From assembly GCA_021324975.1 (NCBI GenBank), contig JAJPIA010000084.1:1-49850 (forward strand): DNA of 49,850 bases, written 5' to 3'. The notes below the pieces were generated by a model, which saw nothing but the letters and a program-made list of their open reading frames with translations, made no database searches and was not told the origin of the DNA. Numbering within the stretch: the first letter of the stretch is position 1; every line of letters starts with the position of its first letter. This stretch comes from Bacillota bacterium. Lineage in GTDB: Bacteria > Sysuimicrobiota > Sysuimicrobiia > Sysuimicrobiales > Segetimicrobiaceae. Of the stretch, positions 6,517-33,370 are shown piece after piece. A program made the translations under genes and the position numbers.

Positions 6517-7794
6517 CTAGCCCCCGCGCGCCGGCATGAATTGTGAGATCAGCAGCGCGATCGACAGCGCGATCATGATGGCGGTCGTCAGCCAGGCGAT
6601 GACGTTGAACGCGTGGGAGTTGGTGTACCGTCCCATCAACTTCTTTTGATTCACCAAGAGCAGCATGAAGACGAGGATGAACGGGAGCAGGACGCCGTTC
6701 GCCACCTGCGACAGGAACAGGATCTGCAGCAGGGGCGCGCGCGGGAGCAGCACGACCACGCACGCGATCACGATGAGCGCGATGTACAGCCCGTAGAAGA
6801 CGGGCGCCTGGCGCACGCTGCGGTCCACGCCCGCCTCGAACCCGAGGGACTCGCACACGTAGTGCGACGTGGCGAGGGGCAGCACGGACGCCGAGAAGAG
6901 CGAGGCGTTGATCAGCCCGAGCGCAAACAGGGCCGCCGCGTATTGCCCGGCGAGGGGACGCAGGGCCAGCGCCGCGTCCTTCACGGTCTCCACGTGCACG
7001 TGGTGGGCAAAGAGCGTCGCGCCGCACGCCACGATGATGAACCATGCGACGACGTCCGTCATGATGGAGCCGACGAGCACGTCGGTGCGGGTGTAGCCGT
7101 ACTCCTTCGTCGTGATGCCCTTTTCGACGACCGACGAATGAAGGTAAAACTGCATCCACGGCGCGATGGTCGTCCCGATGACGCCGACGAACATCGTGAG
7201 GTAGTCGGCGCGGAAGCTGAAGCTCGGCGTGACCGTGGCCCGCAGCACCGCGCCCCAGTCCGGGCGCGCGAGCAGTCCGGAGACGACGTACGCGAGGTAG
7301 AATGCGCTGGCGCCGAGGAAGATGCGCTCCACGGAGCGGTAGGTCCCCTTGACGACCAGGATCCACACCGCGATCGCCCCGATCGGCACGAGGACGTACT
7401 TCGACACCCCGAAGATCTCGCCGCCGGCGGCGAGCCCGGAAAACTCCGCCATGGTGTTCCCCAGATCGGCGAGGATCAGCGCGAACATCGCGAACGCGGT
7501 CGCGCGAACGCCGAATCGCTCGCGGATGAGGTCGGCCAACCCCACGCCGGTGACCGCCCCGAGACGCGACGCCATCTCCTGGACGACGTACAGCGCGATC
7601 GTGACGGGGATCATCGTCCACAGCAGACCGTAGCCGTAGCCCGCACCCGCGAGCGAGTACGTGGTGATCCCGCCCGCGTCGTTGTCGACGTTCTGGGTCA
7701 CGATCCCGGGCCCCATGATCGCGAGAAACACCACGAGGCGGCCCACCGCAGCGCTCCGGGTCGCGCGGCGGAAGAGTGGGAGCGGCAAGCTCAT
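6517..7794 (-). CDS. NRAMP-related divalent metal transporter, atypical metal site
   Basis: A 425-residue membrane protein with the Nramp (SLC11) fold and about 11 membrane segments. The start GPGIVTQNVDNDAGG aligns with helix 1 and LHSSVVEKG follows helix 6. The classical helix-1 motif DPGN reads D39-A-G-G42 here, losing the Asn ligand. The helix-6 MPH reads Ala211-Pro-Trp213, losing the Met that favours soft transition metals. Nramp-related proteins that lack this Met are known as Mg2+/Mn2+ transporters (the NRMT group), so Mg2+ uptake is plausible. The ATG at 7794 overlaps the stop of the upstream MgtE_N/CBS gene (ATGA), so the two are probably translated together. The long open frame upstream of this ATG is a shadow of that gene. 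Confidence 0.9.
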   Translation of the reverse strand: MSLPLPLFRRATRSAAVGRLVVFLAIMGPGIVTQNVDNDAGGITTYSLAGAGYGYGLLWTMIPVTIALYVVQEMASRLGAVTGVGLADLIRERFGVRATAFAMFALILADLGNTMAEFSGLAAGGEIFGVSKYVLVPIGAIAVWILVVKGTYRSVERIFLGASAFYLAYVVSGLLARPDWGAVLRATVTPSFSFRADYLTMFVGVIGTTIAPWMQFYLHSSVVEKGITTKEYGYTRTDVLVGSIMTDVVAWFIIVACGATLFAHHVHVETVKDAALALRPLAGQYAAALFALGLINASLFSASVLPLATSHYVCESLGFEAGVDRSVRQAPVFYGLYIALIVIACVVVLLPRAPLLQILFLSQVANGVLLPFILVFMLLLVNQKKLMGRYTNSHAFNVIAWLTTAIMIALSIALLISQFMPARGG

Positions 7795-9092
7795 GCCCGG
7801 TCGGCTCCGCTCCGCGCGGCCCGCCGCCGGGAGAGGTCGACCCCGCCGCCGAGCTTGCGGGGTCCGTACTCCTCGAGGAGGATGTCGATCACCTGATCCA
7901 CGGTGACGACGCCGATGAGCCGTCCGCTCTCTTCGACGACCGGCACCGCGAGGAGGTCGTACTTGACCAGCGTCGCGGCGACGTCCGGGGCGCTGACGTC
8001 GGGACCCACCGTGATGACGTCGCGACGCATCACCGCGGAGACCTGGGTCTCCGGCCGCGCCGCGATGAGCGCGCGGATCGACAGCACGCCCACGAGCCGC
8101 TCGTGACCGTCCACGACGTAGAGGTAGTTGATCGCCTCCTCGTCGGGCTGGGTTTCCCGGAGACGAGCGAACACCTGCTCCACGGTCATCGACTCGGCGA
8201 GCGCGATGTACTCCGTCGTCATCGTCCCCGCGGCGGTGTCCGGCGGGTACTGCAACAGGCGGCTGACCTCTTCCGCCCGCTCCTCTTCCATGAGCGCGAT
8301 GAGCTCCTCGGCGCGGGCCTCCGGCAGCTCGCCGAGCACGTCGGCCGCCTCGTCGGGCGCCATCTCTTCCAGGATGTCCGAGGCCCGCTCGCTCGGGAGC
8401 TCCTGGATCACCGTCGCCTGCACGTCCGGCTCGGCTTCCTCCAACACGTCCGCCGCGCGCTCGTCCGGCAGCGCGGTCATCATCTCGACGCGCTCGTCGC
8501 GGTCCAGTTCCTCGAGCAGGTCCGCCAGGTCGGCGGGGTGGATGTCCTTGAGCTTCTGCCGGGAGATGCTGAGCTTGAGCGGTGTCATCGTCCCGCCGAG
8601 GACAGCCACGAGATTCCAAGGGATGACGCGCACGGCGAGCGTCCGCCCGGCTCGGGCCAGCATGCCGCTAACGAACGGCTCGAGCCCCAAACGGCGCAGA
8701 ATCGCGCGCGTCCCGACGTCCGCCCCGACGACGCGCACCTCCGACCCGGTCTGCCGCAGCTCGATGTCGTTGACCCGCACCACCTTGATGTCGTCCGTGT
8801 CGACGACCTGGCCGTCGAGGATGTCGTCGCGCAGCAGAATCTCATCCGGCTGCAGCGGCCGGGGCGAGAGATGACGCCGCTCCACCTTGAGCCGGATGCC
8901 CGACGCCGTGAGCTCGGCCACAGCATCCCAGGGAATGATCGCCACGCGGCTGCGGTCGCCCCGGAGCAGGATCCCCGTGATGCGGGGGAACCGCTCCGTG
9001 CCGTGGTAGATCACGAGATCCGACACGGTGTCGAACGCATCCCCGGTGGCGTCGTACACCGGTTTCCCGATCACCTCGCTCAGGTAGCCCAC
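7791..9092 (-). CDS. Soluble PRC-barrel / MgtE N-domain / CBS-pair protein
   Basis: A 433-residue cytoplasmic protein without membrane segments. A PRC-barrel domain lies at about residues 1-75 (GKPVYDATGDAFDTVSDLV) and a second PRC-like region at 85-165. The acidic superhelical MgtE_N domain is at about 185-285 (HPADLADLLEEL and repeats of the type LPDERAADVLEEAEPD). Two CBS motifs follow at about 290-345 and 350-410. In true MgtE these N and CBS domains sense Mg2+ and gate the channel, but the channel domain is absent here. The partner gene, overlapping by four bases, is the NRAMP-related transporter. The start is the GTG at 9092, preceded by GGAGAG. It overlaps the end of the GNAT gene by 13 bases. 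The longer frame up to 9671 is spurious. Confidence 0.88.
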   Translation of the reverse strand: MGYLSEVIGKPVYDATGDAFDTVSDLVIYHGTERFPRITGILLRGDRSRVAIIPWDAVAELTASGIRLKVERRHLSPRPLQPDEILLRDDILDGQVVDTDDIKVVRVNDIELRQTGSEVRVVGADVGTRAILRRLGLEPFVSGMLARAGRTLAVRVIPWNLVAVLGGTMTPLKLSISRQKLKDIHPADLADLLEELDRDERVEMMTALPDERAADVLEEAEPDVQATVIQELPSERASDILEEMAPDEAADVLGELPEARAEELIALMEEERAEEVSRLLQYPPDTAAGTMTTEYIALAESMTVEQVFARLRETQPDEEAINYLYVVDGHERLVGVLSIRALIAARPETQVSAVMRRDVITVGPDVSAPDVAATLVKYDLLAVPVVEESGRLIGVVTVDQVIDILLEEYGPRKLGGGVDLSRRRAARSGADRA

Positions 9093-9577
9093 GCCCCGCT
9101 CTCCGCGGTCAATTTCATCCGGTGCATGTACGTCGTGAATCCCAGACGCTCCCAAAACCTCACGGCGTCCGGGTTGCCCACGGCGACCGTCAACTCCACG
9201 AGGGATATCCGCCGGCCGCCGAACCACCGCAACAGCGCCTCGACGACCTCCCGTCCGATCCCGCGTCCCCGGCGTTCCGGAAGTGTGTAGACGTCCTGGA
9301 TCCAACCCCGGCGCTGCTCCCGAAACGACAGCGGCAGCACGTGGATCCGGCCGAGCGCGAACGAGACGATGCGATCGTCCTCCACGCCCACCATGACGCA
9401 GGCATCCGCGCTCTCGATCGTCTCGCGCAGGAATGCCGCGTACTCCCGCGAGGCCGGGCGAGTCACGGCGAGTGCAGGATCGAGCGCGCCGTGATGCGCG
9501 GCAAGGGCCTCCCACAATGGCAGGACATGCGGGATGTCGCGGAGCGTGGCAGGCCGGACCTGGACGTGCGCCGTCAT
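9080..9577 (-). CDS. GNAT family N-acetyltransferase
   Basis: A 165-residue protein with the GNAT fold. The N-terminal strand is VQVRPATLRDIPHV, the middle strands are CVMVGVEDDRIVSFALG, and the acetyl-CoA loop is RRGRGIGREVVEALL, matching the R/Q-x-x-G-x-G/A signature. NPDAVRFWERLGF is the usual final motif. It transfers an acetyl group to an unknown amine acceptor such as an antibiotic, polyamine, peptide or amino acid. It is the first gene of a minus-strand run followed by the PRC/MgtE_N/CBS protein (13-base overlap) and the NRAMP-type transporter, so it is probably co-transcribed with them, though nothing links its function to metal transport. Confidence 0.88.
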   Translation of the reverse strand: MTAHVQVRPATLRDIPHVLPLWEALAAHHGALDPALAVTRPASREYAAFLRETIESADACVMVGVEDDRIVSFALGRIHVLPLSFREQRRGWIQDVYTLPERRGRGIGREVVEALLRWFGGRRISLVELTVAVGNPDAVRFWERLGFTTYMHRMKLTAESGAWAT

Positions 9578-29786: not shown

Positions 29787-32700
29787 TCATGACACGCCGC
29801 CGCCGAGTGCCCTCACGCGCTCCACCGCGGGGGATCGGAGGAAGATCGTGCGGAGCCGCTCCTCGGGCACGGTCGCGGCCAGGCGATCGACGACCGCGCC
29901 CGCGCGCGACGCGCTCGTCCGCGATGCGCCGGGGTGTCCCATCACCCGGGAGGTGTCCGCGAGCCCGGCCAGCGCACGCCAGAGCAACGGCGTGCGCCCG
30001 AGGCGCTCGGCCTCGTCGCTTGCCGATCTGTAGGTCGATGCCGCGGCGGCCGGATCTCCGAGCGCCCCCGCCGCATCGGCCAGCAGCAGGAGGGCCGGCA
30101 CGCGCCAGTGCAACGCGCCGGTGGCGGCAGTCATCGCGATGAGGCGCTCGGCGGCGCTCCTCGCCTCCGCCGGCCTACCGGTCGCGTGCAGCATCCGACC
30201 CTCAGCGTGCGTGACTTGTTGCGGATAATCGAGACGGCGCGGTCCGTCGCCGAGCGACCGTTGCGCTTCCTCGATGTATCGCTGCGCCTCCTCCATCCGG
30301 CCGAGCGCGAGGGCGTCGAGCGCGAGCGAGGAGAGCAGGCGCGGCATCCAAAAGGCGCCGACTTCGCCGACGCGCGCCAGGTCCACCGCCTCACGATGGG
30401 CGCGCCAGGCGCCCTCTGTATCCTCCAGTTCCCGGAGCACGTCTCCGATCGTGTGCAGGTTGACGGCGGCCTGTCGAGGTGCGTTGATCTGCCGCGCGAG
30501 CGTCAGTCCCCGCGACGCGTACTCGATCGCCTCGCCGGGCTCGCCCGTCGATGTGGCGATGCGCGCCGCCACGTGGAGCCCAAAGGACAGGTTCCACACA
30601 TCGCCGATGTCCGCCAGCACGGCGATGCTCTCTTTGGCCTCCGATTGCGCCTGGGCGTACTGGCCCAGGATCTCGCGGGCGCCGGCGATCATGTACCGAT
30701 TCTCGCCCGCCAGTGAACGGTTGCCGATCCGCTCGCTCACGCGGGCCGACTCGGTGCACCGGTCAACGCTCTCCCGGAACCGTCCGAGAAACATCAGATT
30801 GTCGCCCAGGCCGTGAAGGCTCTCGGCGAGGCCGCCGAGGTCACCGCAGCGGTCGAGCAACTGGCGCGCCTCTTCGTGGCTGCGGATCGCCTCGGCGTGC
30901 TTGCTCGTGTTGAAGTACGCGAATCCGATGTGGTTGAGGATGCGCCCCGTCAGCGACGGGTCGTCCATCTGGCGGCTCAGCGCCAACGCCTGCTCCAGGC
31001 ACGCCAGGGCCCGCGCGATCTCGTCCTGCTGGCGGTACGAGTATCCGAGGGCATCGAGCGCGATCGCCTCCCGCCGGCGCGCTCCCGTTTGCCGCGCGAG
31101 GTCGCGGGCGGCAACGAAATCGTCGCGCGCCGGCGCGTAGCGCCCCAGCAACACCTGGACGCGGCCGCGGCCGAGCAGCGCCTGGATCCGGAAGGCCGGC
31201 TCCGGGTTCAACTCCAGCACCCGCGTGAAATGCGCCACCGCCGTGGAATTGGCATAGAGACCGGCCGCGCGGTCTCCGGCCACTTGCAGGTTCGCGATCG
31301 CCTGCTCGCGCGCCACGGCGTCCGGCGGGAGCCCGAGATCCCGCCGCAGCGTCAGCACCTCCAGCCAGTGGTGGGCGATACAATCCGCGTACTCCGCGGC
31401 GCGATCGCCCGCCACTCGCCGGTGCCACTCCGCGCACCGCACGTGCGCGGGCCAACGGCTGGCCTTGGGGAGCATCGCGTACGCAACGTCTCGAATCAGC
31501 GCGTGACGAAACGCATATTCCTGCTCGCCGACCAACGTCGATTGCCGCTTCGGCGCCACCAGGCCCTTGGTGACAAGACCGGGCATGGCGGCATCGAGCC
31601 CGCCGTCCTCGGTGATGAACCGGGTCGCCCCGAGCCAGAAATCTCTCCCGACGACGGCCGCGACCTGCAGCAGCCTCTTTTCTGGGCCCGGCAGCGCGTC
31701 CACCCGGGCCGCGATCACGGCGTGTATCGTATCGGGGATCGCGATGTCGGAGGCCGGCACCGCGAGCGCCCAGCCCCCGTCGACCCCCGCCGTGAGAACC
31801 TGTTGCTCCATGATCGTCCGGAGCATCTCCTCAATGAACAGCGGGTTGCCTTCCGCCCGTTCGAGCACGACGTCCATGAGCGGAGCGGGAACGGCGCTCC
31901 CAAGGACCCGCCGGATCAGGGCCCGGCTCTGCTCGCCGGGGAGCGGATCGAGGGACAACGCCGTCGTCGCCCTTCGCCCGCGCATCCATGCCGGTCGCCG
32001 CTCCAGCAGGTCCGGCCGCGCAAGCGCGAGCAGCACGATCGGCATCTCCGAGACCCAATCCGCGGCGTGCTCCACGAAATCCAGCGTGGCGTCTTCCGCG
32101 GCGTGCACGTCCTCAAAGATCAGCAAGAGCGGTGTGCGACGAGCCAGCGCCTCGAAGAATGCGCGAAGACCCGAGAACAGGACTTCCCGGGTCACCTCAC
32201 GGCCCTCTCCATTGAGGCTCAGGACCGTCAACAGGGCCGGCACGGCATCGCCCGCGGCGAGCCGTGCGATCGCATTCGAGAGCTTGGCTCGAGCGGCCTC
32301 TAAGGAGTCGCCCATCAGGATGCCGCACTCTTCCTTGACCGCCTCTCCGATCGCCGAGAACGGCACCCCCGTGCCGTACGCCACCGTGCGACCGAGGAGA
32401 CACCGCATCGTGGCGTGGCGCGCCCGGAACTCTTGCGCCAACCGGCTCTTCCCCGTCCCGGCCTCGGCGAGGACCGTGATCACCTGACCCCGACGCTCGT
32501 GGCAGGCGCGCTGCGCCCATGTGTCCAGGGCTTCCAACTCGCCGGATCGACCAACGAACGGCGTCGCCGGCATCGGGTCCTGCGCCGGAGGGGCGTCGAG
32601 CACCGCCCACACCGGCAGGGCAGCCGCCGCCCCCTTCATCGTGAGCGGCGGCAGCGGCCGCACCGACGCGGCGCCGTGCAGCGCGAGCATGGTGCGTTCA

Positions 32701-33224
32701 CCGATGAGGATTTGGCCGGGTTCCGCAGACTGCTGGAGCCGCGCCGCGAGGTTGACGACTTCGCCCGTCACCAAAAAGTCGCCGCGCGCGGTGGCCTCGA
32801 CGTCCGCCACCACCTCCCCGGTATCGATCCCGATCCGGATCTCGGGCAGGCTGCCGCGCTCGACCTGCGCTCGGACCCGGGCGCGCAGCGAGCTCGCCGC
32901 ACGCACCGCCCGCTCGGGGTCGTCCTCGTGGATCACCGGCAGGCCAAAAACGGCCATCACCGCGTCTCCGATGAACTTCTCCACCGTACCGCCGTACCGG
33001 ACGATCTCCTCGCGGGCGGCGTCGAAGAAGCGGGCCATCTGCGCGCGAACCTGTTCCGGGTCCACGGTGCCGGCCAGGCGCGTCGACCCGACAACGTCCG
33101 CAAACAAAACCGTCACGAGCTTGCGTTCTTCGCGGGGAGTCGTGAAGGGCAGAAGCGCACGCCCGCACCCGCCGCAGAACCGCATCCGGTGCGGGTTTTC
33201 GAAACCGCAGATCGGGCAGCGCAC
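29787..33224 (-). CDS. Class III adenylate/guanylate cyclase with AAA ATPase and TPR regions
   Basis: A protein of about 1,145 residues. A zinc ribbon opens it (Cys3, Cys6, Cys17, Cys20), followed by a class III cyclase domain (about 35-205) with metal ligands Asp43 (FADVVGST) and Asp87 (EKFIGDAVMAVFG) and the transition-state pair Asn158/Arg162 (VVNLAARL). Next come an AAA_16/STAND-type ATPase with Walker A AEAGTGKS (about 253-260) and a Walker B-like LLLIFEDVHAAED, then a long TPR-rich half. Cyclase residues are complete, so cAMP or cGMP synthesis is likely. I prefer the GTG at 33224, which starts the usual zinc ribbon; a TTG at 33323 adds 33 unrelated residues. It precedes the cNMP-binding protein. 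Confidence 0.9.
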   Translation of the reverse strand: MRCPICGFENPHRMRFCGGCGRALLPFTTPREERKLVTVLFADVVGSTRLAGTVDPEQVRAQMARFFDAAREEIVRYGGTVEKFIGDAVMAVFGLPVIHEDDPERAVRAASSLRARVRAQVERGSLPEIRIGIDTGEVVADVEATARGDFLVTGEVVNLAARLQQSAEPGQILIGERTMLALHGAASVRPLPPLTMKGAAAALPVWAVLDAPPAQDPMPATPFVGRSGELEALDTWAQRACHERRGQVITVLAEAGTGKSRLAQEFRARHATMRCLLGRTVAYGTGVPFSAIGEAVKEECGILMGDSLEAARAKLSNAIARLAAGDAVPALLTVLSLNGEGREVTREVLFSGLRAFFEALARRTPLLLIFEDVHAAEDATLDFVEHAADWVSEMPIVLLALARPDLLERRPAWMRGRRATTALSLDPLPGEQSRALIRRVLGSAVPAPLMDVVLERAEGNPLFIEEMLRTIMEQQVLTAGVDGGWALAVPASDIAIPDTIHAVIAARVDALPGPEKRLLQVAAVVGRDFWLGATRFITEDGGLDAAMPGLVTKGLVAPKRQSTLVGEQEYAFRHALIRDVAYAMLPKASRWPAHVRCAEWHRRVAGDRAAEYADCIAHHWLEVLTLRRDLGLPPDAVAREQAIANLQVAGDRAAGLYANSTAVAHFTRVLELNPEPAFRIQALLGRGRVQVLLGRYAPARDDFVAARDLARQTGARRREAIALDALGYSYRQQDEIARALACLEQALALSRQMDDPSLTGRILNHIGFAYFNTSKHAEAIRSHEEARQLLDRCGDLGGLAESLHGLGDNLMFLGRFRESVDRCTESARVSERIGNRSLAGENRYMIAGAREILGQYAQAQSEAKESIAVLADIGDVWNLSFGLHVAARIATSTGEPGEAIEYASRGLTLARQINAPRQAAVNLHTIGDVLRELEDTEGAWRAHREAVDLARVGEVGAFWMPRLLSSLALDALALGRMEEAQRYIEEAQRSLGDGPRRLDYPQQVTHAEGRMLHATGRPAEARSAAERLIAMTAATGALHWRVPALLLLADAAGALGDPAAAASTYRSASDEAERLGRTPLLWRALAGLADTSRVMGHPGASRTSASRAGAVVDRLAATVPEERLRTIFLRSPAVERVRALGGGVS

Positions 33225-33370
33225 GCTAGGTCGCTTCGTTTCGGCTCCAACCGGAGCGTGGATGGATCTCGTACTCGAAAATTGCAAGAAGCTTCCGTCT
33301 TCGCGAGCGTATTCCTTCCACAAGACATCACGGAGGCCATCCGCGCGGAGTGTGTGCTGGAGTTGTGTTT

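Follow-up and report, generated by a model that had tools for sequence, protein, structure and literature searches.

Two adjacent genes in a 49,850-nucleotide stretch of bacterial DNA (the window, from assembly GCA_021324975.1 of the GTDB phylum Sysuimicrobiota, here called the host phylum) probably encode a Mg2+ uptake system in which an NRMT-type importer is placed under feedback by a stand-alone sensor derived from the MgtE channel. We put the probability of this reading at about 0.6. It is favoured because the transporter is EleNRMT-like, because such transporters are consistently paired with a gene of this kind, because genomes with the pair mostly do without the MgtE channel and vice versa, because MgtE, CorA and MgtA were not found in the window's genome, and because most acidic Mg2+ sites are kept in the putative sensor.

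The gene pairing and the idea of a feedback sensor have been known since 2014. Shin et al. 2014 (PMC4072509) reported that most NrmT genes adjoin a gene homologous to the cytosolic domain of MgtE, and proposed cytoplasmic feedback, or a chaperone role, for the MgtE-like fragment; the central idea of a preliminary description of the window was therefore already in print. The window pair fits theirs, with an adjacent MgtE_N and CBS gene, a four-base overlap and a matching fold. The 2014 work left the role of the fragment open, and in the literature searched we found no later papers on it. New here are the near-obligatory pairing in three bacterial groups, the exclusion with the MgtE channel and the dead-channel intermediates, and together these data make the role of the fragment testable.

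The gene pair and its products

Both genes lie on the minus strand, the stop codon of the partner and the start codon of the transporter sharing the bases ATGA. The features are as follows:

6517..7794, minus strand: NRMT-type Nramp-related transporter, 425 aa (Pfam Nramp, EleNRMT match, tree)
7669..7686, minus strand: helix-1 ion-site motif DNDAGG, the NRMT DxxG (sequence; signature from PMC8806188)
7153..7176, minus strand: helix-6 ion-site motif GTTIAPWM, the NRMT TxxA, without Met-Pro-His (sequence)
7791..9092, minus strand: soluble partner of 433 aa, translated from a GTG codon; PRC barrel(s) come first, then MgtE_N, then the CBS pair, and there is no channel domain (Pfam, fold match)
8907..9086, minus strand: PRC barrel 1, residues 3-62 (PF05239, 5.5e-8)
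8601..8843, minus strand: second PRC-like barrel, residues ~84-164 (sub-threshold in Pfam, E=0.3; predicted strands; homologues)
8238..8543, minus strand: MgtE_N domain, residues 184-285 (PF03448, 1.4e-30)
7875..8225, minus strand: CBS pair, residues ~290-406 (PF00571)

The transporter has a full-length Nramp fold (positions 1-356 of the 357 in the Pfam model PF01566, E=9e-97), and its top match in the PDB is EleNRMT (7qia, E=4.5e-114), far ahead of any classical Nramp (2e-29 at best). According to PMC8806188, the NRMT clade is defined by DxxG and TxxA in place of DxxN and A/CxxM, and EleNRMT carries Mg2+ and Mn2+ without proton coupling. The ion site in the window reads DAGG in helix 1 and TTIA in helix 6, in keeping with the NRMT signature DxxG and TxxA/T. 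In a tree of 123 sequences the transporter and EleNRMT fall together in a clade of 82 members (support 0.985), and all 24 classical DPGN sequences fall outside it. Judged by sequence and phylogeny, the transporter belongs with the NRMTs rather than with the classical Mn/Fe Nramps.

The partner carries the N domain and the CBS pair of MgtE; since the five-helix channel domain with the pore residue Asp432 is missing, it is not filed as an MgtE channel, and its score against the NCBIfam mgtE model (202 bits) lies under the cut-off of 232.75. In a predicted structure (mean pLDDT 83), the N and CBS part matches the Mg2+-bound cytosolic domain of MgtE (2yvy) with a TM-score of 0.83 by target length, and residues 84-164 form a strand-rich second unit. 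Two stretches score as PRC in the Coriobacteriia homologues of the partner.

The preliminary description, made from the sequence alone, had the coordinates of both genes, their strand and their overlap right. The Nramp fold that it named and the MgtE_N and CBS domains lacking a channel were confirmed by Pfam, the substitutions in helices 1 and 6 are as it claimed, and its separation of the transporter from the classical Nramps was upheld by the best PDB match and by the tree. Its plural 'PRC barrels' is reasonable, with one barrel over the Pfam threshold and the second resting on the E-value of 0.3, the two stretches in homologues and the strand-rich unit. A GNAT acetyltransferase gene (9080-9577, minus strand) overlaps the start of the partner gene by 13 bases; it was considered as a third member and rejected, as it does not accompany the pair outside the closest genomes. 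Elsewhere the window encodes a 1178-aa adenylate/guanylate cyclase - AAA - TPR protein (29787-33323, minus strand).

The Mg2+-site residues of Thermus thermophilus MgtE (TtMgtE; PMC5882242) and its ATP residues (PMC5529423) were mapped onto the partner by alignment. Five of the six cytosolic Mg2+-site positions (Mg4-Mg7) are acidic in the partner, TtMgtE E59, D91, D95, D226 and D250 corresponding to D215, D247, D251, D379 and D403; the sixth, TtMgtE D247 of site Mg4, aligns with the non-acidic Q400 and is Asp in most relatives. The expectation that the acidic Mg2+-binding positions of the MgtE domains would be present thus holds for these five and fails at Gln400. In MgtE, mutation at any one of the sites Mg2-Mg7 blocks closure (PMC5882242). 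Among 23 aligned partners, D251 (TtMgtE D95) is invariant and D247 nearly so, and across the partner family the bridging acids rank with the best-conserved positions. The plug-helix residues E258 and D259 have no acidic counterpart in the window partner, whose tail, compared by eye, reads EEYGPRKLGGG. Only the Tyr and Arg of the ATP pocket (Y170, R187, D188, N203, V207, F227) are retained, the ATP-stacking F227 being replaced by Leu (L380), D188 by Ala, N203 by Arg and V207 by Ile. The window and 40 paired loci were searched with Rfam for a magnesium (M-box) riboswitch, a feature that belongs to a subset of NRMT genes and is not required, and none was found.

Pairing with NRMTs and exclusion of the MgtE channel

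Nramp homologues were collected from 43 host-phylum genomes, and each locus was scored for the partner and for the ion-site motif. A PRC-MgtE_N-CBS gene is directly adjacent, on the same strand, in all 26 host-phylum NRMT loci that are readable on both sides (the window and a frameshifted locus, L109, included), and the partner stands beside the NRMT by coordinates in two further genomes (G009 and G010), which brings the number of genomes to 28. The only two host-phylum NRMT loci with no visible partner, L092 and L097, are both at a contig edge. Outside the host phylum the partner adjoins the NRMT in all 24 loci of a set consisting mostly of Bdellovibrionota and their neighbours and in 50/50 Coriobacteriia loci examined, and it is found next door to the closest relatives of EleNRMT that we found (94-96% identical, L159-L161). 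The locus L006 and the contig G026:C139 (10991 bases) were counted once. Since no locus that can be read on both sides lacks this neighbour, the arrangement is not due to chance. At L109 the partner and the transporter seem to be fused in a single 824-aa frame; a fusion was rejected, the CBS part being out of frame, and the case was attributed to a frameshift.

Within the host phylum the partner stands beside none of 24 classical Nramps and none of 16 other Met-less Nramps, the latter with the motifs DNDPAG/GATLTPYM, DDDPSG/GTTISPYM, ENDAPS/GATVTPWM and, in the window's own genome, DTDAGN/GATFNPWM. The preliminary description was therefore right that the gene pair would be conserved elsewhere, in the host phylum, the mostly Bdellovibrionota set and Coriobacteriia alike; its proposal that co-occurrence would track the loss of the Met as such did not hold, since these 16 relatives are unpaired and pairing follows the NRMT signature instead. 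Strong MgtE_N matches in the host phylum belong to a full MgtE, lie beside an NRMT or lie at a broken contig.

Several of these relatives can be listed in their own right. The Met-less loci L114, L116-L119, L121-L123, L110, L112, L113 and L115, with the DNDPAG/GATLTPYM or DDDPSG/GTTISPYM motifs, have no MgtE-like partner. A third Nramp paralogue of the window's genome (L005; G000 C119:66542-67561) reads DTDAGN and GATFNPWM, with Asn at the Met position, and no MgtE-like gene neighbours it. At L120 (G013), a transporter with the NRMT signature lies outside the main clade, and a divergent PRC-MgtE_N-CBS gene follows 42 bases downstream; this is a second, divergent pairing, possibly of independent origin.

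The NRMT pair usually replaces the MgtE channel, the two being largely exclusive in two groups. Of the 43 host-phylum genomes, a paired-type NRMT is found in 31 and an MgtE channel domain in 12, one genome having both and one neither (Fisher 2.4e-8, uncorrected for phylogeny); in the family f2, the NRMT occurs in certain genera and the MgtE channel in others. Of 149 Coriobacteriia genomes, 116 have an NRMT, and 3 of these give a strong match to the MgtE channel, vs 16 of the 33 that have no NRMT (6e-10). Both p-values are too small, because they ignore shared descent; the pattern nonetheless appears in two groups.

In the window's genome (96% complete), no MgtE channel, CorA or MgtA scored over cut-off. 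A CNNM/CorC protein is present, as is a 1603-aa open frame (G000 C131:31665-34280) whose P-type ATPase matches stay under the MgtA cut-off; because of these two, the NRMT is the best and not the only conceivable route for Mg2+. A separate classical Nramp of the DPGN/MPH type (C120) is assigned to Mn/Fe.

Pore-dead partners in Coriobacteriia

Most Coriobacteriia partners extend some 200 residues beyond the CBS pair, in about five helices (L163-L164, L166-L176, L128-L156), and at the Eggerthella-like (EleNRMT-like) loci L157-L162 and L165 the partner has a single C-terminal hydrophobic helix. Compared by hhalign, 42 Coriobacteriia tails match 17 true MgtE channel domains at 98.7% probability (E=2.9e-16, 193 columns), and membrane-protein controls drawn from NRMT segments stay below 1%. 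The Pfam MgtE model gives weak matches beside the NRMT in 20 Coriobacteriia genomes, of which six pass the cut-off. The pore residue Asp432 is present in 17/17 of the MgtEs and in 0/42 of the Coriobacteriia partners, whose tails have also lost the GN...Q and SGP motifs. The plug-helix residues E258 and D259 are kept in all 42, and an acid replaces an MgtE Arg in 40. Because they have such conserved features of their own, the tails look maintained and not merely decaying. These profile and residue comparisons make the C-terminal domain of the Coriobacteriia partners a homologue of the MgtE channel, with a pore that is to all appearances dead.

The partner looks like an MgtE minus its channel, because a pore-dead channel domain is present in most Coriobacteriia. 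Most likely it descends from a whole MgtE channel in which the pore died and the domain was then lost. It is an even question whether the full course was that of an ex-channel regulatory subunit, a complete MgtE that came to be paired with an NRMT, acquired PRC barrels, lost the residues of its pore but not its Mg2+ sensor, and then shed its membrane part. The chances are just as balanced that the living forms make up a corresponding series, from the five-helix, pore-dead partners of most Coriobacteriia through the one-helix partners of the EleNRMT relatives to the soluble partners of the window and of Bdellovibrionota. Were the descent from a channel true, the NRMT would have taken over transport and the old channel would have become its gauge.

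In a tree of partners, MgtE sequences separate the host-phylum partners from those of Coriobacteriia and Bdellovibrionota, with low to moderate support. One Coriobacteriia locus, L007 (from the genome of L127), has a transporter that groups with those of the window and of Bdellovibrionota (0.967), and a partner of the membrane type placed among Coriobacteriia partners (0.976); the order of the two genes is reversed. As a window-type transporter and a Coriobacteriia-type partner are here combined, the pair apparently re-formed after an exchange, and this one case favours the view that selection keeps the two genes together.

Feedback, its alternatives and known systems

We hypothesize that the NRMT brings Mg2+, its probable substrate in the window's organism, into the cell, and that the stand-alone cytosolic sensor derived from MgtE feeds back on it. 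When closed, the sensor would keep the NRMT non-transporting; a drop in Mg2+ would open the sensor and release the NRMT. The PRC barrels, a possible docking part, or elsewhere the dead channel domain, may provide the contact or the membrane anchor. Mg2+ sensing by the partner, its physical contact with the NRMT and the sign of the control are what we infer from the evidence above, and a pore-dead MgtE adjoining an NRMT points directly to regulation across both proteins. Counted against Mg2+ feedback are published results on the transporters of Acidobacterium capsulatum (Mn2+ uptake) and C. acetobutylicum (activity without a partner), the substitution Q400, the missing plug-helix acids, the degraded ATP pocket and the M-box not found.

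It is unlikely that the transporter moves Mn2+, or more than one divalent metal, with a partner that senses the metal carried, as has been suggested for A. capsulatum. In favour of this reading, the sole riboswitch-less paired transporter tested, that of A. capsulatum, restored Mn2+ uptake well but Mg2+ uptake poorly, with no further improvement when its partner was co-expressed (PMC4072509). Mn2+ transport by EleNRMT (PMC8806188) and the M-box not found in the window would also suit such a pair. Against it, a classical DPGN/MPH Nramp is already present in the window's genome, MgtE, CorA and MgtA were not found there, and the paired NRMT and the MgtE channel are largely exclusive in two groups. 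Quite unlikely, too, is a partner that serves as an assembly, stability or activating subunit or as a metal chaperone, its N-CBS core kept as a scaffold and no Mg2+-responsive brake present. Elsewhere, a dead channel domain or one helix makes many partners membrane proteins, which is what a bound subunit would predict, and the window partner has lost one Mg2+-site residue, its plug-helix acids and much of its ATP site; chaperone activity was also among the proposals of Shin et al. (PMC4072509). Against this reading, the bridging acids belong to the best-conserved positions of the family, with D251 invariant and D247 nearly so, and an NRMT needs no partner to be active in vitro or in complementation (PMC8806188, PMC4072509).

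That C. acetobutylicum NRMTs are functional without a partner (PMC4072509) would agree with simple operon neighbours in a Mg2+ regulon, sharing no physical or functional contact. This is very improbable, given that the adjacency is kept in distant groups and in both gene orders, that the pair re-formed at L007, that the partner stands beside no other type of Nramp, and that no strong host-phylum MgtE_N match occurs except in a full MgtE, next to an NRMT or where a contig is broken.

Among known systems, the operons of NrmT and an MgtE-like fragment (Shin et al. 2014, PMC4072509) have their two genes side by side, as in the window; the window pair differs in belonging to another bacterial group and in having no detected M-box riboswitch. 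The PRC barrels of its partner are not named, and the pore-dead channel domain of most Coriobacteriia partners is not described, in the available portion of that paper. The cytosolic domain of Thermus thermophilus MgtE (2yvy/2zy9) shares the N and CBS fold with the window partner at 43% identity over 231 positions. Compared with that MgtE, the partner has PRC barrels added in front and no channel, and keeps most of the acidic Mg4-Mg7 positions, whereas the plug-helix acids are gone and the ATP pocket is degraded. EleNRMT of Eggerthella lenta (7qia; Ramanadane et al. 2022, PMC8806188) belongs to the same clade as the window transporter, has ~41% identity with it (read off the alignment) and an identical DxxG/TxxA ion site. 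The study of EleNRMT covers the transporter alone. As the close relatives of EleNRMT do have a partner, the complex could be approached with a transporter type already purified and solved; that partner has one C-terminal membrane helix, in contrast to the soluble partner of the window.
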